From: Meghimatium bilineatum
Lineage: Eukaryota; Mollusca; Gastropoda; Stylommatophora; Philomycidae
NCBI GenBank assembly: GCA_034231615.1
Contig: CM067306.1
Location: 65,313,790-65,377,789 of the forward strand
Direction: 5' to 3'
Length of the DNA: 64,000 nucleotides
The first letter of the stretch is position 1; each line of letters starts with the position of its first letter. This document shows, in pieces, positions 2,686 to 63,789 of this stretch. The notes under the pieces are model-generated. The model was not told where the DNA came from, made no database searches, and was given only the letters and a program-made list of their open reading frames with translations. Made by a program: the position numbers and the translations under genes.

Positions 2686-5600
2686 TACAAATCATCATCA
2701 TTAAGTGCCATCTCCGCAACGAAGGTTGGCTGCAACTATCTCCAACATCTGTCTCTTGTTTTGGTGGTGCACTCTGTTAGACTGTAACCTGTCCATCTTG
2801 TGATGTTACTCTCCCACTTGTATCTCTGCCTATCTCTTGCTCGCTTCCCTTTGACTTTACTCTCAAGTAAGGTTTTCAATATGCTGTCATAATCAATAAT
2901 TGGTACAAATCACCAGCAGTAAATCACATGGTCCGGCAAAACTATGTCGTATACTGATGATATCTTGGTGTTTAGGCATGGCAAAAATAGGGAAATGTGC
3001 GTTATTAAAGTACAGAAGGAGGGGGACCAAATAGGAAAGTGGTGTGAGGATACAGGGGCTTTGTTGAATCCATCTAAGGCATGCATAACATGGTTTTCTC
3101 TCAACAATCACAATGTAAATACTCCCATGGCTTTTGTCTCGTTGGGTGAGATCAAGCTGAAAGAACTAATACAATGAAATACCTTGGGATGCTTTTTGAT
3201 AGAAGTCTGAGCTTCAAGGAACATGTAGACCACATCATCACAAGGATGATGATATGGTGATGATAGTAGAGGACTGGCATTAATGAAAGTTATGGCTGCT
3301 GCCCAGTTTGGGTAGAGGTTACTTTTTCTTTTGTACCAGGGATTAGTGGTAACAGTGTTAGAGTATGCACTGGCAATTCTGATGCTCAGTCAGACTCAGG
3401 TGGCATGACTGGACAAAATACAGAATGCAGCTATGCAAATTGATCTGCGATGCACAAGGGACACATCAGTTCGGGCTATGTGATGCTTGCTCGACTGTCC
3501 AACTGCAGAACATAGAATACAGTATTGCTGCGCAAAGGATTACCTTCAAATAAATGCGGATAAAGAACATCTTTTGCATCCTGAAATCCTTAAAATCAAA
3601 GGTAGTAGACTGAAGAGAGGAAAATCGTTTATATGACGGGCAGAGAATATCATACAAAGTGTGTGTAGGTTCCAGGATGTAGCAGCAGGCGCAGAATAGA
3701 AACGCCTGCCCATGGATTGCAAAATTGAGTTATAATAACACTTGATAGGGCAGCAAGGAATGGGGGCAAGTGTCGATGGAGGCGTTGGTCAATGAGAACT
3801 CTGGTGAAGGGGATGTGATTATATACACAGACGGATCGGTGGTTAGATATGTTCGTAGTGTGTGGGCCTTCACAGCTCAGTGTGCAGGGAAAAGTGTTAG
3901 GGAAGAGAGTCGAGCTTTTTCTGTGACTACGAGTAGTATGACTATGGAGATCATGGCGGCGACTATGGCATTAGAATGGGTCAGCTCACAGAGGGCTTTG
4001 TGGACCTGTATCCTGAGTGTCTCGATGGATATGATTACGAAAGTACAAAAGGGTCTCGCTCGTGAACAATGGACTGAGATATTGATAGGGTCGAGATTTG
4101 AGATGGTGACTTTTATTTTCGTGCATGGGCATGTTGGCGTTCGGGGCAACCGAGTGAGGTGATTTGCTGGCATTAGGTGCGTTGTTACACCACAGGGAGT
4201 ACCAATGAATTGGGCAGATGTGTTGAATTCCCTACGGGAGACAAGCATGTGAAAGTGACATGGGTGATGATTCTTATTCAATGGTTAAAATTTAAAGAAC
4301 AGGGTTTGAAATGTAGGGTCGCCAGAGGGTAGCAGAAGAATAATGGTCAATCAACATAGATCCGGAACTATCAGCAGAGGTGTTATGGCAGATACTCAGG
4401 GAGAGATCGGAGCACCTATGGATTTGTCCAGAGTGCAGTGATGATGATTGATGATTAACTAACTAACAAACTTAACTAAAAATAATAATTTAATTTTTAA
4501 ATTAATGAAAGTTAAAGTGCAATATTGATTCATCAGCTATTCTCTCCTTTTGGTGTAAGGCATCATTGGATTGAATGACAATCAGCTTTGAGGATATATC
4601 ACGTTTGGTTGCTTGTTAAGTATTATTGTGATCTCAGAATGTTGGTTACTCCTTCAATCTACCTTATCCTAGGTCTTCCTCTTGGTATTTCCATTCTTCA
4701 TGATGTATGCTCTTGTTGCTAGTCAACATGGATTCATTCTCATTAAGTGGCCAAACTATTTAAGTCTGTGTTTCCATATATTTGGCCACAGACGTTCCAA
4801 TAGTCCATGAAATCTATTCATTTTTCACATGACATCTTTGTGTTCCGTTCGCTGCAATTTCCTAGACATTTCATTTTACACATTGTAAGCTTTCTATTTG
4901 TTCTTTAGTTAGTGTCCACACTTGACATCGATATAACAATGTTGGTATGAAGACTAAATCATTTGTCTTTGGTTTCCATAGGAAGAGATGGAGGAGATTT
5001 CCCTTGTGTAGTGGTCAAGCTATTCGCGTTAAACTCAAGAGGTTGTGGGTTCAGAACCTGCACAGACGTCTTATTTATAAAGTGAATTTTTTGGAGATTC
5101 CTGGGGAATTGGGTATCTTGAAGCCACAGAGTTACATCCTATGAGTGGTGCTCTTTATAGGCAACATGCTGCTTCGTTGAGAGCGACATGGTACACAATG
5201 GACAACCTAGGTACAATGAAGTCTTTGACATATATGTTTTTAATCAGTGTACGTTCATAATTTACGTAGTTGGTATTTTGAATTCTTGTCTCGATTTCTC
5301 TGTCCATTCTTCCATCATATGTAAAAATGCTCCCATGATATTGAAATTCTAGCAATTGCTTCAGTAGTTTATCTTTATGTAAGTATCTCTTTATGTAAGC
5401 ATCTCTTTATTTAAGTATCTCTTTATAAAAGTATCTCTTTGGCTGACAATGTGACCACCAACACAGTGATTATATCAGAGACTCCCTAAGTGTGCTGCAC
5501 AAGAGAGGAAAATGCATTGGAAAAGGAGTGGCGTCAAGGACAACGAAAGAGCATATTGGTGGGTAAGCTATAGTAGATGGCTAAGTGATGAGAATAGACC

Positions 5601-10782: not shown

Positions 10783-11396
10783 TAAGCATTTGGACTAAAT
10801 TTTTAAAATGGGTTTACAGCATTATAAATACCACAGCTAGATATGCCTTAATGTAATTCAACAATACTTTAACCATTGATCTGTAGGTCAATTCTGAGAA
10901 ATGTTATGAATTTTCTGGTCAAAATTTTACGCAAAAATAATTACATTAACATAAGAAAATATGAACGGACTGGTGAAGAGAGCGGTGACCAGGAATTACA
11001 GCCGAGTTAACAATTTATGAATTATCTTAGTATGAAGTATTTACGATAAAACATGCCTAAAACTATATATTTTTGTGTTCGTAAAGTTAAGACGAATTTG
11101 TTGATTATATTTTGCTACTATTCAGATGTGATTGGGACTAATTAATATTCAAAATGGTGGCTAATTTGCATAATTAACTTTCAACTGCAGTCTAATTATT
11201 AAATATTTCAGTTGTTTATGATAAAATATGCCACAAGTAAGATATTATTGTTTTCAGAAAGGCAAGACACATTTGTTCATTACATAGCACTAATTTTCAG
11301 ATGCAATTTGGAGCAATTAACATTAAAATGGCAATACTACACAACAGTTCTGCAAAATAGATCTGTACATAAAATGTTACATAAGAAGAAATATAT

Positions 11397-12545
11397 TTAC
11401 CTTGTTTCCACTTCTTCCTTCTCAATGCTGACCTTTCTAATGTACTGTGCCAGTTCCTTGTTCATTACTTCCGCTTCCATCAGTTTCTTTTCCAGTCCTT
11501 GAGCATGCTTCATTGCCTTTTCAAGAAGTTTGTCCTGTTGTCGAATTAAGGCCTCAGCATCTGTCAGCTTTTTCTCCAAGTCCTTCCATTTGGCAACTGA
11601 ATCTTGGAAAACATTCTGATTAACTGCTAGTTCCTTGCACCTTTTGCTCAAAGCACATATTCTGATTGCATTCCTCTTCGTGATCTGATTTATCCTCTTA
11701 ACTGAATATATTGCCTTGATATCCTGATTCACCTTCCTTAGTGCCTTCAGCTTCCTTGACAAAGACACACACTTCTTCGTCATATTTGCAATTGTGCGCT
11801 TCTTTTTTGCACAGGCATCACAGTCATATCTCATCTTCTTAGGGGATGGTGACCTAATCAATGTACTAGAAAAAGACGCTGCAATATCAGATGTACCTGA
11901 CAGGAATGGTGACTCAGTTGGAATAGAAAGAGGCTGCAAATCATTAACATTGACCTTGTGTGCCAGGGACACACCTGAAAAAGAAGGTGCCAAGGACACA
12001 CCTGAAAAAGAAGGTACAATATCAGATGCACCTGAAAATGAAGGTGCAATATCAGATGCACCTGAAAATGAAGGTGCAATATCAGATGCACCTGAAAATG
12101 AAGGTGCAATATCAGATGCACCTGAAAATGAAGGTGCAATATCAGAAACACCTGAAAAAGAAGGTGCCATATCAGTTGGCACAGGATGCTGCAAAGTATT
12201 AGCATTAGGTACAACCCTAAAAGGTATAGGATAGGGTTCTAGAAAAAGACACATAAGATTGGACCAGTTTGAATCAATATTTTTTATCTGCATTTTTAAT
12301 TCTCGTTCATATTTTTTCAAAGTGACTCTCAGATAATCTTCTCTGATATGCTTATCTTGTTCCTGAGCAAGCACAAGAGTCTTGATCTTGCGAATCACTT
12401 CAGAAACTTTATTTGTTTTAGGTTTAGTCTTGACCGGGGCCAATAGCAGCTGTGCAATGTACCCTTTCTTCACCGGATACTCTGGTACAAGTTGTACAAG
12501 ATGTCCCCTCAGATCCTCCATACATTTCTTCTCCGTACATGCCAT
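11397..12545 (-). CDS. Unrecognised 382-residue coiled-coil protein with decapeptide repeats, encoded by transposon copy I
   Basis: The start is the ATG at 12543-12545, 12 nt inside an exon whose acceptor (ATTCAG) is conserved as a module. The N-terminal 75 residues (MEDLRGHLVQLVPEYPVKKG, GYIAQLLLAPVKT) match the decayed copy at 23900-24115. Residues about 126-195 are eight tandem units close to APSFSGASDI. There follows a Ser/Pro-rich linker and a C-terminal half starting at CDACAKKKRTIANMTKK, rich in Lys, Leu and Glu heptads and probably a coiled coil. The frame closes with TAA directly after ACAAG|G; since ACAAG|GTAAAT is a plausible 5' splice site, the protein may instead continue into an unseen exon. 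I see no DDE, RT or zinc-ribbon signature, so function is unknown; a DNA-binding or accessory protein of the element is an inference. Confidence 0.65.
   Translation of the reverse strand: MACTEKKCMEDLRGHLVQLVPEYPVKKGYIAQLLLAPVKTKPKTNKVSEVIRKIKTLVLAQEQDKHIREDYLRVTLKKYERELKMQIKNIDSNWSNLMCLFLEPYPIPFRVVPNANTLQHPVPTDMAPSFSGVSDIAPSFSGASDIAPSFSGASDIAPSFSGASDIAPSFSGASDIVPSFSGVSLAPSFSGVSLAHKVNVNDLQPLSIPTESPFLSGTSDIAASFSSTLIRSPSPKKMRYDCDACAKKKRTIANMTKKCVSLSRKLKALRKVNQDIKAIYSVKRINQITKRNAIRICALSKRCKELAVNQNVFQDSVAKWKDLEKKLTDAEALIRQQDKLLEKAMKHAQGLEKKLMEAEVMNKELAQYIRKVSIEKEEVETR
11960..12200 (-). repeat. 30-bp in-frame coding minisatellite
   Basis: Thirty-bp units encode APSFSGASDI-like decapeptides, five nearly identical and three diverged (two shortened to 9 codons). 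Confidence 0.9.
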
Positions 12546-12782
12546 CACTGCCACTACCTGAATTAGAATAAAATTGAATAATAACACAAGTAGACCCAGT
12601 TAGTAAATAAATTTCAAATAAACTTATGGATATGGAAACTATAACAAACTGACAAAGGAGCTGCAGTATATGAAATAATATGCACATAAAAATTGCACCA
12701 ATTTATCAACTTATCAAGATAAATATGCAAAATATTGTTATAGTTAATTCTAATAAATACCTTAATAATAATGTTTAAATAG

Positions 12783-12950
12783 AAGCTCCGCCAAAGACGG
12801 ATGTGTTGGGCCATTGGCGCAAATAAAATGGTGACACAACACATTTCCATTCTCTGGACTACATCCTTCTGGAAATCTAATAGGGCCATGGTCCTCATAC
12901 ACAAGATATCCAGTGGGAGTTTGAGAATGAATGCTGAAGAAGAAGAATAG
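12783..12950 (+). mobile_element. SINE-like family A copy inside the transposon intron
   Basis: Near full length, from CCGCCAAAGACGGATGTGTT to GAAGAAGAAGAA. It is absent from the equivalent intron of copy II, so it inserted after the copies diverged. Confidence 0.8.
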
Positions 12951-14126
12951 AAGCTAGCTGCGTTTCATTACAGATAGTGAGAAACAAAAACACTTGTCAT
13001 CGTCACGGTGACAGATGCGTGACGAGCATCTGACATAATTTTTTGTTTTGTGCCCTTGAATTATTTAACATAATAATGCTTGACGATATTTCAATAAACA
13101 TAAACACTAGTATCACTCTAAATTAACCTTTAGAACACACCGGGTGAAACATTTGGCCCCAATCGTGTCATTTCTTGAATCTTGAAGACGAAATCCTTCG
13201 CCCAGTGCTCGAAACCCGAATCCAAAACAAGTCAGATTTGTAATTTTTTTAAAGGGAATATTATGGCAACTCTCAGTAGATATATTATGTAACTTTCTGT
13301 TTGTGTTACTAAAATGACGATAGGTGACGTGTGATTATTCAATTGAAATCCCAACAATCTATAGTCATCAGCATTGAGGCGAAGCGACATGACAGTGAAT
13401 CGGGTTTTATATACTTTTGTTTTTTTGTCGTATGTTCAGTTAAATCATTATTGATTGTGATCCTAAAGTGGAAATCTTGAGAGGTAAGTTCTTTAAATAG
13501 ATTAAATAAAATAGACCACAAGGTTTTCGTTGTTTAAAATATATAATATTCAGCAGATTTGGAGTGACCAAAAATACAATAGGTCTATATCTAGAAAGGT
13601 CTAAATCTGTCTTTATCACTTTCTAACATGTCTTGTATCACACACAAACAAAACTTACACCAATATATGCAGAATTCAATTCTTTATTTATATGTGCAAA
13701 TATTATTTAAATATCTCTAACAACAAAAAAGTTACCACAATTTCAAAACAGCCACCAACGATTAGGTAACATTTCCAAAAACTAATTCAGCGGCAGGAGA
13801 GAAATTACACAATTGTAAACAGAGCATGCTAAAGGTTAACTAAAGAAATTATAAGAGGCATGAATTATATTATATAATGCAATAACGTACATTTCTCTCA
13901 TTATAAATGTATGTTAATAATGGCGCGGCACTGAAAACAAACTCTAAAGTTAGCGTGGTAGACCGATTATCACAGCATTTTAAAAAATTCGATAACAATT
14001 ACAAGACTTCCAAAAATGTTAAATTTGTGTATATAAAGATTGGTTACCGAATATGTTAGATGTGGTTTCCATATAACGTAAATCAAACTAATCCAATACA
14101 CGTGTGCAAAAGTGAAAAACACTTAC

Positions 14127-14285
14127 CTCGGCTTGTTGAATTGCTTGCTGTAAATTGTACACAAAGGTTGTACATACAACCTCGTCATCCAGAAATGTAC
14201 AAATGGATGACAAATCTTAAACAGTTCACTTTTATATGCATTGTTGTCGCATCGCGTAGCTAAATGACAATTCTATTGGTCAGTA
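14127..14285 (-). promoter_or_regulatory. TATA/CCAAT promoter and non-coding exon 1 of copy I
   Basis: Minus strand: CCAAT at 14275-14279, then GCATATAAAAGTGAAC (TATA about 14230-14238). Exon 1 ends GCCGAG before GTAAGTGTTTTTCAC at 14126. The TATA, exon end and donor align with copies II-IV. The start site is inferred from the TATA position. Confidence 0.65.
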
Positions 14286-14583
14286 TGTACATGATCCTGG
14301 AAAACTGTCCCCGCGTGAGATTTATCAAGGAACATAACCAATTTATCTTTTTTTTTTAATTTCTATTATCGCTAATGCCTATATAAAGGCAGAGGCCCTA
14401 AACTCTTGATATCTTTGAATGGTTCAAAAAGTGGTAGAAATTTACTGATGTAATTTATGGAACTTAGGCCTATATTCTATATCTGCCAGTCACTTGCACA
14501 TTCAAAATTGCATTGCTGGTAGGCCCTGGCAGAGATTGCCTGTAGTACAGCCTACAAAGAAGTCCTTACAAGTTAACTTACTA

Positions 14584-15740
14584 GTAGGCACATAATTACA
14601 AATAATATACCGGTAGTTAGATAGCCCTTAAAAAATGCAATTCGATGATACATCAAACAAGTCTGTACGTCAATCCTGAAAAATTGTATGAATTTATTTC
14701 AAATTAATTTCACATCAACGTTTTTTTTTACATAAAACATATAGGAAAATATAAATAAAACTTGTGACCACAAAATGTAGCCAAGCTGATAATTTCTAAA
14801 TTATCTTTGTTATTTACAATAATACAACACACAAACTTTAAATTTTTTTGTTCGCAAAGAACAGAGGCATCTGTTGATCCCATTTCTGTAATTTTCAGAA
14901 GCAAGAACAACTAATTAATATTCAAAAATGGCAGCTAATTAGCATAATTAAAATATAAAAATTATTATCCGGTATATAGCAATTTAAATACCAAACAATA
15001 TATATATATAGTTCTGTGTTCGCAAAGACAAAGCAGATTTATTGATCACATTTCTATAATTTTCAGATGCGTGCAGAACTAATTAATATTCAAAATGGCA
15101 GATCTTCAGTGTAATTAAAATGAAAATAAATTATATAACTATTGAATATAATAAAATACCACAGAAACTATATATTTTTGTGTGCGCAAGACAAGACATT
15201 TCTATTTATTTGCATATCTCAAGACATATTTATAACATTTCTAAAATTTCAATATGCGAGAAAAAATAATTAATATTAAAAATGGCAGCTAATTAGCATA
15301 ATTAAAATAAACTATATAACTATAAAATATAATAAAATACCACAGAAAATATATATTTTTGTGTTCACAAAGGCAAGATGCATCTGTTTATTACATTGCG
15401 CTAATTTTCAAATGAATCTAGAGTTAATAAAATTCAAAATGGCGGCTAATTTGCATGAATAACATTGCATTGGGTTGTCTAATTATAAAATATATCCGTT
15501 ACCGGTATTTATTAAATATCCTACAATATACCGCTATACATTTTTGTGTTTGGGAAAACTTGCATAATCTGCTAGTTACGTTACCATTATTTTTAGATAC
15601 AACCAAAGCTAATGAATATTCAAAAAGGCTAATTTACATAATTAAAATTAATTTTCATACAGGACTGTTAAATGTCCTAGTTATTTATGATAAATGGTTT
15701 CTGTGCTTCAAATGTGACAAAACGTTCATGGATTATGTGC
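14584..15740 (-). mobile_element. TAGG-family transposon, copy V (3' part only)
   Basis: The left end reads TAGGCACATAATTAC, followed by the conserved 3' block (14605-14790) and five or six subrepeats about 150 bp apart, each with GGCAGCTAATTAGCATAATT-like and TATATTTTTGTGTTCGCAAAG blocks. No promoter or coding part remains on its 5' side. Confidence 0.65.
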
Positions 15741-17909: not shown

Positions 17910-18853
17910 AAATGAAAACAGTGTGCTATTTATAGCGTTTATGTCGCTGGTTATGCTCCTTTATAAATAATTGTAGGGACAGTTTTCCAGATACTAACCA
18001 ATCCAATTATCATTAAAGCATCGTGAAACGACATCAGTGCCTATAATAGGGGACTGTTTCAGTTTTGTCACCCATTTCTATATCGGATTCTGAAGTTGGC
18101 AGTTGAAAATATGTTGTGTAAAATTTACAGCATGGATTTCAACAAGCTGATAAGTGTTCAATAAGTGTTTTTCATTTCTGCACACGTGTATCGAATTAGT
18201 TTGTAAAATCAATGTGAAACAATGCCTAACAAATTCAGAAACCATTTCTCTCTTTATATATTTTGTAACAGAAATTGTAACATTTTTGGAAGTCGCTTGT
18301 AATTGCCCTTGAATTTTTTAAAGATGACAATATTGCCATTTTAATGTTTATTACCACAAATCACATCTGAAAATTGTTATAATGAATTCAACAGGTACGC
18401 CCGTCCTTTCCGAACACAAAAATATATAGTTTGTATGGTATTTTATCGTAAATAACTTGAATATTTAATAATTAGACTTAAATTGAAAGTAAATTATGCA
18501 AATTAGCCACTATTTTTAATATTAATTAACCCGAAGTACATATGAAAATTTGTACAAGCATTTAACAGATGCATCGTGTGGCCCTGCCGAACACAAAAAT
18601 GTATAGTTTTATGCATATTTTATCATAAATAACTCAGATATCTAAGATATTTAATAAACTGTTAACTCTCCTGTTTGGTCACAACTTTCTTACCAGTCCG
18701 TTCATATTTTCTTATATGTTCTCATGTAATTATCTTTTCGTTAAATTTTTACCAAAAAAATTAATAACTTTTCTAAGAATTGACATACAGACTTGGTTGA
18801 GGTATCCTTGAAATACAAATTTCACGGCCTATCTAGCTGTGGTGTTTATAATG
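17910..18853 (+). mobile_element. TAGG-family transposon, copy III (internally deleted)
   Basis: Sequence after 17945 (GGTTATGCTCCTTTATAAAT, GACAGTTTTCCAGATAC) matches the 5' region of copy I. CCAAT (about 18002) and a TATA-like CCTATAATAG (about 18040) precede an exon with TTGTGTAAAATTTACAGC. After a shortened intron come two subrepeats (18330-18640) and the 3' block (18640-18850). There is no coding exon, and the 3' terminal repeat is missing where copy IV begins. Confidence 0.6.
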
Positions 18854-20618
18854 TAGGCATTAGGGAATCATTAGGGGGCGTGAACGTGAATTTGGCTTAG
18901 ATTATTTCCCTTGTTTTGGTAGCGTCCGCTGATCGATTATGGCGTCACGTGAAACACTGACCAGTCCAATTTTCTTTAGGCAACTCGATGCAACCTTATT
19001 GCTTATAAAAGACAACTGTTTACGATTTCTCATTCATTTGTGCATGGATTCCGAAGGTGTATGTTGGAAATATGTTGTGTAAAATTTACAGCCAGCAATT
19101 AAACAAACCTAGGTAAGTGTTTTTCATCTTTGCACACGTGTATCTTATTAGTTTGTTTGTTATACCATCGTGTAACCATGTCTAACAAATTTAGCAACCA
19201 TTTCTCTCTTTATATAAGCGCTATTCTTTTCTGTCGCGGCGATAATTCTGAAATGTCTCTTATTTTAAAAAATTTACATTTAACAACTACAATTCTTGCC
19301 TCTTTTAATTTCTTCAATTCATTTTTAAATGATACTAATAAGAAATCCAAGATTTATATGTAAAATAATTTGAATTATTGGTACAATACCATGCCGGGTG
19401 TGCATACTATTCTGCATCCGTCACCATGACGAATGAAGTGTTTTCTTAGTCAAATCGTCATGTTTCATGTGGATAATTATACAAGAAACACATTTTACAT
19501 TAAATATATATTGTTTATGAAGTCCAAATTCACACTCCAGGGTGCCGGCTGTGCACTCATCCATATGAAACTGTTGACCACCACCTTTTTGAATGTCCAG
19601 CGCTGGATGACATCAGGAAAATGCTCCTCCCTCCAGGGCCAGATAAATGATTATATGGAACAAAACAACAACTCACAAACACATGCATATATCACATAAT
19701 GGCATTGGGTCAAAGGGCATGAGCCCATGGACCGCTGGATCAGCAACCAACCAACCAACCATGAAGTCCAATTACTTATAATTCTCTCATGAATATTTCA
19801 TAAAGTTCATTTTTATTTGAGAGATGCTTTCTCCTTTCAATAGACCTAATAAATCAAACCATCAATGCAGACGTCAACTGCTGCATCTTCCAAACTTTCT
19901 CACTCTTTTTGATATCTTTTTCTGTTGTTTATTATAAAATTTGCTCAATTTTCAACATAAATTTCTACAGTTATCTGCAGAACATACATGTATAAAGTAT
20001 TTAATTATATAGGGCTAATTAAATTATCACTAAAATAGGAAAAAGCTTATTCATAATGAAGTCAGACTATTTTGAACATTTGGTGCACATACCTACCTAG
20101 TATTTCACCCATACCTTTGACAAAGAATTGTTTATGTACCTGTGATACTAAATGCCAATAATAATAATCAAACATTATATTTCAGATACAAAGAGGGCTG
20201 AGAAGACAGATTGCCAGCCATATGATTGCCATAAAGGGCAGCACAGCAGAGATTTTAATTATGCTAATTAGACACCATTATTAATTGGCTTTGGTTGCAT
20301 CGGAAAATTAACACAATGTAATCAACAGATGCGTCCTGTCTTTACAAACACAAAAACATAAGTTTTCCATATATTTTATTCTACATAATTAAATATTGTA
20401 ATAAATATATATTAAATATTACACTGTAACTATGCTAATTAGACGCCATTATTAATTGGCTCTGGTTGCATCGGAAAATGAACACAATGTAATCAAAATA
20501 TGCGTCGTGCCTTCATGAACACAAAAATGTATATTTTGTTCGTTTTTATTGGAAATAACTTTAACTGTGGTGTTTATAATGCTGCAACCCAATTTTTAAA
20601 ATTTTGTCCTAATCCCTA
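18854..20618 (+). mobile_element. TAGG-family transposon, copy IV
   Basis: It starts TAGGCATTAGGGAATC and ends with TTTTGTCCTAATCCCTA. CCAAT (18966-18970), TATAAAAG (19004-19011), exon 1 ending at 19112 before GTAAGTGTTTTTCATC, and intron sequence up to about 19440 all align with copies I and II. The coding exon is lost, a SINE-like piece lies at 19690-19770, and two subrepeats (20250-20560) remain. Confidence 0.6.
18966..19112 (+). promoter_or_regulatory. Promoter and exon 1 of copy IV
   Basis: CCAAT, then GCTTATAAAAGACAACTG, then exon 1 with a GTAAGT donor at 19113, all in the same order as copies I and II. Confidence 0.6.
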
Positions 20619-22790: not shown

Positions 22791-22826
22791 CCCATTTTGA
22801 AAATTTAGTGCTAATGCCTACTGTAG
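22790..22826 (+). mobile_element. Orphan TAGG-family 3' terminus
   Basis: CCCATTTTGAAAATTTAGTG then CTAATGCCTA is almost identical to the terminal 31 bp of copy II, with nothing else of the element beside it. Confidence 0.6.
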
Positions 22827-23074
22827 AAAAGAAAGATTTACCCTATTTATATACTTGGAGTCGCATGCAAAAAATAGTCAAGGTCGACCAACGAAATTCA
22901 CGAAAATAATGAAAAGGACTTTTAGGTCATGTTTACATTTTCTTTGCATAGGTCTTATACTAGGCATTAGCACTAATCGAAATATTTCCGCAAAAAGATA
23001 TTTAGAGTAATGTCCCTTGATAAACATGCCATTTGCCGACATTTTCATTTTTTCATGGACCACGTGTGCACTAT

Positions 23075-23227
23075 CCAATGGAATTGTCATTTAGTGACGC
23101 CACGCAGCTTTAGTTCATATAAAAGTGAACTGTATACTATTTATAATCCATTTGTTCAGTGTATTAAGATTATAAATGTTGGAGATACCTTATCTACAAT
23201 TAACACCAAGCAATTAAACAAGACGAG
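23075..23227 (+). promoter_or_regulatory. Promoter and exon 1 of copy II
   Basis: CCAATGGAATTGTCATTTAG, then CATATAAAAGTGAAC, then exon 1 ending AAACAAGACGAG before GTAGGTG. CATATAAAAGTGAAC is identical in copy I. Confidence 0.65.
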
Positions 23228-23887
23228 GTAGGTGTTTTTTCTCTTTGCACACGTATATTTTTTAGTTTTGATTTTAAGTGATATGTGAAACCATGTCTAA
23301 CATATTCAGCAACCATTTCTCTCTTTATGTACCAAATTTTAACATTTCTAGAAGTACCTATTAATTATTATAAAATTTTAAAAATGCTATGGTGATCGAC
23401 CGACCACGCTACTAACTTTAGAGTTCGTTTTCGGCTGTTCAATGTTGCCGCGCCGTTAATTATCGATATACGTGTATAATGTTAAAAATTTAAGTTACAG
23501 TTTAATGAATTTCTACATCTTATCATTCTTTAGTTAATTTAATGTGACACTATGTACTAGTTTTTATTTAAATGTCTTCAAACAGTATTATATTAAATTA
23601 TTCAAGGGTACAGATAAAAAAAAACATGTCAGCGCGTCAGAATGCTTGTAGCCCATGTTACCATGACAATGACAAGTGTTTGTGTCTCACCGAAGTCACT
23701 GTAATCAAACTCAAGATAGCTTCTATTCAAACATTATTAGTAGGTCTAGGTATAAATTAGAATTACCGTAAAGATAGTTGAGAAGTCACCTATGTAAGTT
23801 TCTTATAGTTTGAATATCCATAATTTTATTTGGAATGTATGAACTAACAGGGTGTACATGCATTTTTGATTATTCTATTTAATTCTG

Positions 23888-24115
23888 GTAGTGACAGTGA
23901 TGGCATATAAGGTCAAGAAATCTATGGAGGATTTGAGGAGACATTTTGCCAATTTTGTACCAGAGTATCCTGTCAAGAAAGGATACATTGCGCAGCTGCT
24001 ATTGACCCCGGTCAAGACTTAGCCTAAAACTAATACATTTTTGGAGGTGATACGAAAGATTAAGACTATAGTGCTTGCTCAGGGACAAGATAAATATATT
24101 AGAGAAAATTATGCA
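23888..24115 (+). pseudogene. Truncated copy of the transposon coding exon
   Basis: ATG at 23900-23902. The first 40 codons (MEDLRRHF.., PEYPVKKGYIAQLLL) match copy I. Codon 41 is TAG (24020-24022) where copy I has Lys. Similarity goes on to about codon 71 and then stops at the first subrepeat. The acceptor AG seen in copy I is TG here (23886-23887). Confidence 0.8.
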
Positions 24116-24889
24116 AATTAGTCACCATTTTGAATATTAATTAGCCCCAATTACGCCTGGCAATTGGTACAGTATATTCAACAGATGCGTCTTGCCTTCC
24201 CGAACACAAAAATGTATAATTTGTATGGTGTTTTATCATAAATAAGTGAAATAATTAATAATTAGACAATTAAATTACAAGTAAATTATGCAAATTAGTC
24301 ACCATTTTGAATATTAATTAGCCCCAATTACGCCTGGCAATTGGTACAGTATATTCAACAGATGCGTCTTGCCTTCCCGAACACAAAAATGTATAGTTTT
24401 ATGCATATATTATCATAAATAACTGAAATATTTCATAAATTGCTAGTTCTGCTTCAATTCTTGGTCACAACTTTCATCATCAGTCCGTTCATATTTTATT
24501 ATATGCTCTCATGTAATTATCTTTTCCTGAAATTTCGACAAAAAAAATTCATAACTTTTCACAGAATCGACCTACAGACTTGGTTGAGGTATCGTTGAAT
24601 TGCAAATTTCAAGGGCTATCTAACTGTGGTGTTTATAATGTTATAACCCCAATTTGAAAATTTAGTGCTAATACCTACTTATACACGGGAGACCGGTCAC
24701 GGCCTGGTCTACTGAGATTGCAGTCGGTTGCATGTTTGCGCTGACTCTGTGAGTTACCTACTAAGAGAAAGTTTACACTTTAGGTTTATTGATTTTTTAC
24801 GTTACCAGTACTTACCTGAAAGAATAAATAAAAGGTTATATTCTATTGCGCAAGAATCAAATTTGATTTTGTAAAGAATTGACACACTG

Positions 24890-26700
24890 GTGACTGTTAC
24901 AATAACGTGCTTTTACCAATGTGGCACCATAAGTCGGTAACACACAACATAAAATGTACTTCCGGTTTACAGAGGCCATATCCGGCTCTTTGGTGCTTGT
25001 ATGAGAGTGAGTTAGTCGTCGGATTATCACTACTCGTAGTCACAGCAAAGGCCCCACTCTCCTCCTCGATCGATTTACATGCGCACTGAGCTGTGAAGAC
25101 CCAAGCACTGCGACCATGTATAATCACATATCCATCAGTGTATATAATAACGTTCCCCTCTTTGGCATTCTAACTGACCAAAGCCTGCGCCTCTTACTTC
25201 ACAGCTGTGGGACACCATTCCCTGCTAAGTGTAATTACTACTCTCAAACAAGTTTAGAAATCTGTTGGTAGACCTATCCATTCCGCACTTGTTGCCATAT
25301 CTTGCGATCTGCACACGCTTTGTATGACATCCTCAGCACATCATATCCACGACTTCCCTCTCTTAGTCTACTACATTTAACTTTCTGTATTTCGGAATAC
25401 AATGGGTGTTCCTTGTCTGCATGTGTATGAATTTACGCCCGTGCATGGCAATACTGTAATCTGTGCTCAGCTGTTAGACAATGAAGTAGGTACCGCATAT
25501 TTTTTGTCGATGTCTCTCTTGTGCACCCAAGAATGATACACATCGCTGCACTCTGGATTCTATCCAGTCTTTCGATCTCAGTTTGGCCAAGAGTCAGAAT
25601 TGCCAGTGCATATTTCACCACAACCACCACCAAACCCTGGTATAAAAGAAATTGCAACCTCTGCTCACACTGCGCAACAGCCATAGCCTTCATTACTTCT
25701 AACCCTTTGCCTGCCCTTATGATAACGTGGTCAACGTTTTCCCTGAAACTCAGACTTCTGTCAAAAAACACACCAGGTATCTAATTGTGCTGGTTCTTTC
25801 TCACCTGTTCCCGTTCAACGAAACATGTGGCATGGGCGTCTTTACCATGTGATTGTTCAAGGAAACAAAGTTACAAATACATTAGAAGAATCCACCACTG
25901 CTCCCGTATCTTTACACCAATTCGTCAGTCTGTCCAGCTTCCCCTGTAGTTCCACGACGCACTCCTCTCGATTTCTGTCCTGCCAATGTACCAGGATGTA
26001 ATCAACTTACGATATCGTTCTGCCAGCACTTGTGATTTGATTGCTAGTGATATGTACTGCGTATACATTGAAAAGCACAGGAGATAGAGGCGATTTCTGT
26101 GGCAAACCAGGGTTAATAACCGTTGGTGCAGATACCCAGTTACCACAATTAAGAACTACTATCCTGTGCAGCAGGGCCGCACCGACTCACTGCACGAAAA
26201 ATCATTTACTGCAAGATTTAACAGTTGGTCCATCAAGACATCCAAGGACACCCTATTGTAATCATCCTCAAGATCTATTACGACCGCACATGTCTCCGTG
26301 CGTGAATCGAACCACTCAAAATAATCCTGCGCAAAGATGGCTGCATTCTGCCATGTCTTTTTTCCTGGGCGATACCTATCTAACAACGTTAGTAAACACC
26401 TATATCTCTCAAGATGACACGATACCTTCCAGGCCACAATGTTTTCCAAAAGCTTGCCTATTGTATTCTGCATTGTTATTATTCTGTAGCCGTGTATCCT
26501 GGTGTGATCCTTGCTAGGTTTGGGTAGTGGAACTATATAGACATGTAACCAGTCTTCTTTTACTGTGTCCTTTAAAATGCTTTTATTGAACATGTCCGCC
26601 AACTCTCCTAACTCCTCATTCGTTCTCCGACTAATGTCATGGTATCTAATGCCATCTGGTCCAAGTGCTGTGTTTTTTTTTACTTTTCAGCACCTTCCTA
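24890..26700 (-). pseudogene. Non-LTR retrotransposon (RT plus RNase H), decayed
   Basis: Minus-strand order: RT fingers (KEDWLHVYIVPLPKPSKDH, GYRIITMQNTIGKLLE, AVVIDLEDDYNRVS), palm in another frame (GLPQKSPLSPVLFNVYA), catalytic region reading VDYILVHWQ where YVDDILV is expected, thumb (FFDRSLSFRENVDHVI, ILTLGQTEIERLDRIQ), then the start of RNase H (WVFTAQCACKSIEEESGAF). RNase H is cut short and joined to the element's last bases near 25020. Same family as 2930-4450. Confidence 0.8.

Positions 26701-33292: not shown

Positions 33293-63789
<30,497 letters not shown>

Follow-up and report, generated by a model that had tools for sequence, protein, structure and literature searches.

A probable cut-and-paste DNA transposon family with 7- or 8-bp target-site duplications in Meghimatium bilineatum and its predicted DDE-like transposase

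About 20 superfamilies of eukaryotic DDE transposons have been named, according to the available text of one account (PMC9587614). A large survey of molluscs relied on profiles of 17 superfamilies, as its accessible portion describes (PMC10294476), and such a survey would pass over a family that lies outside them. Target-site duplications (TSDs) of 7 bp are on record for hAT7 elements of rust fungi (PMC12730594, in excerpt), and the Repbase paper uses a hAT element with a 7-bp TSD as its example query (PMC4455052, in excerpt). Galileo, an element of the P superfamily, likewise has 7-bp TSDs in the excerpted description (PMC2775673).

The element considered here, copy II, lies in a 64,000-nucleotide stretch of the M. 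bilineatum genome (C9:65313790-65377789; the genome comprises 1.61 Gb in 32 contigs). This whole stretch is called the window, and positions in it are counted from its first letter. Copy II is best explained, with a probability of about 0.92, as a non-autonomous member of a cut-and-paste DNA transposon family whose full-length elements encode a DDE-like transposase of about 1000 aa.

Copy II spans positions 22961-24677. An initial annotation had described inverted ends here, with CTTATAC abutting both, and each description proved accurate. The left terminal inverted repeat (TIR), TAGGCATTAGCACTAA at 22961-22976 (+), and the right TIR at 24662-24677 (-) are 16 nt long and pair at 15 of 16 positions, giving 94% complementarity with one mismatch. 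The two copies of CTTATAC adjoin the left end (22954-22960) and the right end (24678-24684) exactly. Read from the sequence, TATAAAA at 23118-23124 (+) is a likely promoter element, and a likely 5' UTR intron covers 23228-23891 (+). Its donor is GAG/GTAGGT at 23228, the exon upstream of this donor appears noncoding, and the acceptor is most likely the AG at 23890-23891, before the ATG at 23900.

The coding exon of copy II is broken, and it represents only the beginning of a far longer transposase. The N-terminal remnant at 23900-24112 (+) was recognised by reading the sequence and by comparison with L021, a complete element elsewhere in the genome; with its leader counted in, it covers 85 aa (23858-24112) that are 84% identical to the L021 frame. 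The frame opened by ATG 23900 reaches an in-frame stop after 40 codons. Two subterminal repeats, also found in full-length elements, occupy 24103-24438 (+) as units of 159 nt each (24103-24261 and 24280-24438; 177 bp from start to start), and a 3' block continues to the right end (24439-24677, +). The subterminal repeats contain ATGCAAAT, which we take to be the octamer motif. Three blocks of copy II (1-812, 898-1152 and 1148-1717) align to the complete L021 element, at 92.7, 92.2 and 97.7%, and this pattern identifies copy II as an internal-deletion derivative of the 8.1-kb L021 type. Other short copies retain different middle pieces of the element.

Five further copies or relics in the window had been said to share one internal order. 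That order is kept nearly whole in a single older and longer copy at 10783-14381 (-), but the others consist mostly of 3' subrepeats, 3' block and rearranged pieces. The older copy has degraded ends, and no matching duplication was seen beside them by eye. It contains a 400-aa open frame (11397-12599, -) that corresponds to the transposase N-terminal part, is 70% identical to residues 3-403 of the L021 frame, and lacks the catalytic region. The remark that no transposase is seen therefore stands for a complete enzyme within the window, but not for this N-terminal part, nor for the genome, where complete elements exist. The relics comprise pieces in rearranged order (18162-19216, +), subrepeats plus 3' block with a degenerate right end (20257-20618, +), pieces built of 3' subrepeats (14615-15694, -), and subrepeats plus 3' block (43959-44439, +). 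A lone right end of a relative sits at 22791-22820 (+), about 140 bp before copy II.

Other features of the window were also recorded. Tandem repeats are abundant between 973 and 63563, in 72 entries whose units range from 2 to 203 bp. An RNase H domain above the Pfam cut-off (3749-4162, +) and a reverse-transcriptase piece below it (26159-26686, -) are retroelement remains, and neither was connected to the element. An open frame at 46783-47127 (-) resembles a fragment of an AAA ATPase, possibly NSF.

Genome-wide counts establish copy II as part of a repeat family beyond chance, since there are 586 exact occurrences (289 + 297) of the end TTAGTGCTAATRCCTA, compared with 2 (1 + 1) of a reversed-pattern control. 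Outside the window, the left 830 bp has at least 42 counterparts that match it at 94-99%, a lower bound because scoring covered 40 of 2227 first-look candidates. The copies examined stop at TAGG/CCTA, in line with the boundaries first proposed for copy II. When the left 800 bp of 14 copies are compared with their majority sequence, the divergence is 0.25-3.15% (4.68% for L021), a low level which indicates that the short copies spread recently.

Some copies are locally clustered. At C10:31999000-32008900 (L036), several short copies stand in a row with three left ends 1831 bp apart, and two of the left ends have identical flanks, which would fit a head-to-tail array that grew after insertion. 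Transposase fragments also recur at regular intervals, of about 2.2 kb on C14 (about 64620294-64691502) and about 4.7 kb on C7 (about 51295911-51340046). Their spacing suggests tandem satellite-like arrays derived from the transposon.

Target-site duplications were scored in 38 copies. The sample combined 7 copies seen earlier, 30 pairs whose flanks were previously unseen, the window copy and L026, making 39, from which L079/L080 was dropped for want of a recognisable right end. Copies at C3:23344710 and C2:23999773 and two from the C10 cluster, all lacking a clear right end of their own, were left out, as was C4:5602817, although its pair is computable. An exact 7-bp TSD flanks 23 of the 38, two of these lying in CA or TA repeats where the match runs over 9 or 11, and seven others have an exact 8-bp TSD that fails at 7. 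The remaining eight (L041, L053, L065, L077, L091, L095, L097 and L037) have neither, L037 differing at one of 7 bases. The 7-bp duplication proposed from copy II alone thus describes most copies but not the 8-bp class or these eight, while recurrence of duplications at genomic flanks, the check suggested at the outset, is seen in 30/38.

Mispaired flanks gave exact 7-bp matches in 6 of 1406 pairings and an exact 8-bp match in 1 of 1406. Among the previously unseen pairs, both ends were present in 29 of 30, and 22 of those 29 carried exact TSDs (16 of 7 bp, 6 of 8 bp), with two of the 22 in simple repeats that leave the length indeterminable. All seven 8-bp cases have complete TAGG/CCTA ends, which shows that a trimmed end does not account for the extra base. 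In raw composition, the 30 targets are AT-rich in the middle; they show no strong consensus.

In search of empty sites, the two flanks of each copy with an exact TSD (30 copies) were joined around a single TSD and compared with the window and the retrieved loci longer than 3 kb. An alignment crossed the junction for 11 of the 30, and five revealed an empty site, one of them weak, so that this proposed check also had a positive outcome. The L036b target GTGTTTA occurs once in L035, L036 and L026 (94-95%); clean empty sites were also found for L045/L046 (91%), L057/L058 (84%, ungapped) and L038 (96%, in L020). The site for L055/L056 is weaker, at 79% with a 2-base gap beside it. The junctions of L063/L064, L067/L068, L087/L088, L089/L090, L035 and L036a are unclean, with gaps, tandem copies or a microsatellite. 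The L036b, L045/L046 and L057/L058 targets fall within the 3' block of relatives, which means that elements of the family nest in each other.

Four coding elements of 6.4-8.1 kb have recognisable ends and TSDs of 7 or 8 bp. L021 (C19:565986-574091) measures 8106 bp with TSD ATGATGG, and L028 (C1:132444451-132450803) measures 6353 bp with TSD GCATAGCA and a left end that diverges after TAGGCATTAGCA. L029 (C19:14517577-14524018, minus strand; 6442 bp, TSD ATCATAG) and L027 (C21:22092479-22099363; 6885 bp, TSD ATAATTA, right end CCTT) belong to a separate group whose identity to L021/L010 is 50-64% in the pieces compared, and their frames are interrupted. A further copy, L023, matches L021 at 98% along most of its length and has lost the final right-end bases. 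With predicted splicing at GT...AG sites, L028 and L021 yield uninterrupted proteins of 986 and 1078 aa, which are 76% identical over 877 aa.

The 400-aa frame of the window has 139 matches to open frames genome-wide. In L010 and L021, the frame extends to 681 aa and adds acidic motifs absent from the window; the core has 146 matches, and the last transposase exon, which lies downstream, has 122. In 36 of the 146 core matches, the open frame is exactly 185 aa and spans the region that immediately precedes the first candidate catalytic D, as in L035 (6617-8807). This frame may give a truncated product. A repressor role was not adopted for it, because recent spread explains equal length in near-identical copies.

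Candidate catalytic residues are D414, D495, C520..H523 and E782 in L028 and D504, D585, C610 and E874 in L021. D1 and D2 are separated by 81, CxxH follows 25 residues on, and E lies about 287 after D2. Across aligned rows, D1 is present in 8 of 8 and D2 in 7 of 8, missing in the broken L104; CxxH appears in 6 of the 7 rows that reach that position (the exception, L103, carries Y), and E in 5 of 5. These conserved acidic residues and their spacing make the protein resemble a DDE enzyme from the C/DxxH group (hAT/P/MuDR/Kolobok/Dada). This is a placement by motif alone, because the comparison with same-genome hAT profiles was insignificant.

Profile searches returned no family for this protein. 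Nothing exceeded the curated Pfam-A cut-offs when the transposase pieces and the full L028 protein were scanned with hmmscan, the KDZ, MULE, P-type, THAP and Dimer_Tnp_hAT models included; the matches below the cut-offs were chance-like, among them a weak HTH_21 match of 11.9 bits (E 0.28) against a cut-off of 28.1. NCBIfam produced chance-like matches and nothing relevant to the transposase, and sequence searches of the PDB produced chance-like matches only. As positive controls, three of these models were run over the genome. The Dimer_Tnp_hAT model lists at least 150 places (150 of 2569 candidates scored), MULE lists 104 and the P model PF21787 lists 2, and none of these listed places is inside the four coding elements. 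An AlphaFold2 model of 135 aa from the N-terminal part in the window was discarded at a mean pLDDT of 47. No relatives were confirmed in viral and GTDB contigs, which are non-animal collections with little bearing on the question.

Two side observations concern other loci. MULE-domain fragments recur many times within 0.42 Mb of C22 (about 61567756-61986951), possibly through local amplification. At C2:121989805-121990428 (L111), a nuclear contig holds a mitochondrial COX1-like stretch with an in-frame TGA, readable by the invertebrate mitochondrial code.

Several observations favour cut-and-paste transposition: TIRs at exact boundaries, TSDs, empty sites, complete copies that encode the predicted transposase with its conserved residues, and short copies with internal deletions. 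The full-length elements (6.4-8.1 kb) would carry a gene that is spliced to encode the transposase of about 1000 aa, with a layout of N-terminal region, coiled-coil-like stretch, D1, D2, CxxH and E. This enzyme may bind the TAGG...CCTA ends, and perhaps also the subterminal repeats, and would excise the element by DDE catalysis in a putative RNase H fold. Insertion would proceed with a variable stagger of 7 or 8 nt that is filled in as the TSD. Copy II, having lost most of its coding region, was presumably moved in trans by the transposase of full-length elements.

As the transposase has no match in the families searched, it probably belongs either to an unnamed superfamily or to a very divergent hAT-like lineage. 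We tentatively put forward the first, at somewhat less than even odds: a eukaryotic DDE superfamily of the C/DxxH group with TAGGCATTAG... ends, 7-/8-bp TSDs, a transposase of about 1000 aa in three coding exons, and at least three diverged subfamilies in this genome, recently active.

Repbase or Dfam may already list the family, whether under an existing name or a general one; the chance of this is substantial though less than even, and it is compatible with any of the other readings. Animal repeat libraries are large. Similar uncharacterised proteins may be present in fish and corals, which would count in favour of prior cataloguing. Against it, none of the papers listed in the literature searches describes the family, judged by title and start of abstract in a scope that leaves Repbase, Dfam and most subscription journals outside, and among the papers listed for the end letters none concerns transposons by title. 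Calling the family apparently undescribed, as the initial annotation did, is consistent with this result, a status judged from literature rather than repeat libraries.

A very divergent hAT lineage that cuts with a 7- or 8-nt stagger is less likely than not. The order D1, D2, CxxH, long spacer and [A/S]ER is that of hAT transposases, and the ER is present in the same-genome hAT rows. An insignificant hhalign alignment pairs the stretch after CxxH, RYVGNRFNVLFHMAAV, with the RW-type stretch of hAT, VTTRWNSTFYMLRRL; hAT families with 7-bp TSDs are known, and 8-bp TSDs occur here. Against this reading, hhalign gave a probability of 0.15% in both runs against same-genome hAT, and when a 7-domain same-genome hAT profile was searched without filters at E values as high as 1000, it listed shuffled sequences and neither of the two transposases. 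The absence of a Dimer_Tnp_hAT match in the transposase, when every listed genome place of that model is outside the coding elements, points the same way. Distant hAT kinship keeps its place among the readings because the same-genome profiles are shallow.

Membership in the P superfamily, as a Galileo-like element, is improbable. The initial annotation had noted that P- and Dada-like elements make duplications of about 7 bp, and this likeness stands. In P transposases, a coiled coil and then an interrupted catalytic domain come after the N-terminal domain, a resemblance that counts for this assignment. However, hmmscan found no P-type or THAP match, the PF21787 places lie outside the coding elements, and GTAGTAC, the Galileo target consensus in the excerpted description (PMC2775673), is absent among the 30 targets here.

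The other half of that comparison was set aside. Dada elements have no TIRs and insert into small-RNA genes (PMC3706591), whereas TIRs of 16 bp are present here; aragorn found no tRNA in the 30 joined flanks, and for 20 of the 30 fetched copies the left-end locus gave no Rfam match. These two differences rule out Dada, and Kolobok is ruled out because the targets here do not fit its TTAA. That the repeats are duplicated genomic segments rather than a mobile element is barely credible, since dispersed copies have sharp ends, TSDs and single-target empty sites, even though some transposase fragments form regularly spaced arrays (C14 ~64.62-64.69 Mb, C7 ~51.30-51.34 Mb).

The preferred reading, a mobile family with its own predicted transposase, has several consequences. 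A recently active family whose transposase lies outside Pfam would add a candidate to the named DDE superfamilies, and its ends and protein would give repeat curators search queries. The two stagger lengths offer a natural test of transposase tolerance. The case also shows that a dispersed transposon can escape scans with family models even when a single genome contains hundreds of its ends.

Among known systems, Kolobok shares the C/DxxH group and differs in its TTAA-specific 4-bp TSDs, according to the available text (PMC9587614). Kyakuja (KDZ) shares 7-bp TSDs but, in the excerpted account of two Laccaria families, has CA..TG ends and no TIRs (PMC12730594). MuDR/MULE elements belong to the C/DxxH group, whereas the MULE domain is unmatched here. 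Their usual TSD is 8-9 bp. Dada resembles this family in its 6-7 bp TSDs, C/DxxH-group DDE enzyme and introns, but it lacks TIRs, targets snRNA or tRNA genes for insertion, and spaces its residues D567-D635-E811 by 68 and 176, compared with 81 and 287 here. P, represented by Galileo, shares the 7-bp TSDs and a coiled-coil-like region before the catalytic part, whereas the present family has no THAP or P-type domain match and no GTAGTAC target. The hAT end consensus departs from TAGGC, with which the ends of this family start. Although no significant sequence similarity links hAT to this transposase, hAT elements, hAT7 included, resemble the family in their short TIRs, known TSDs of 7-8 bp, the D...D...CxxH...E order and the long spacer before E.
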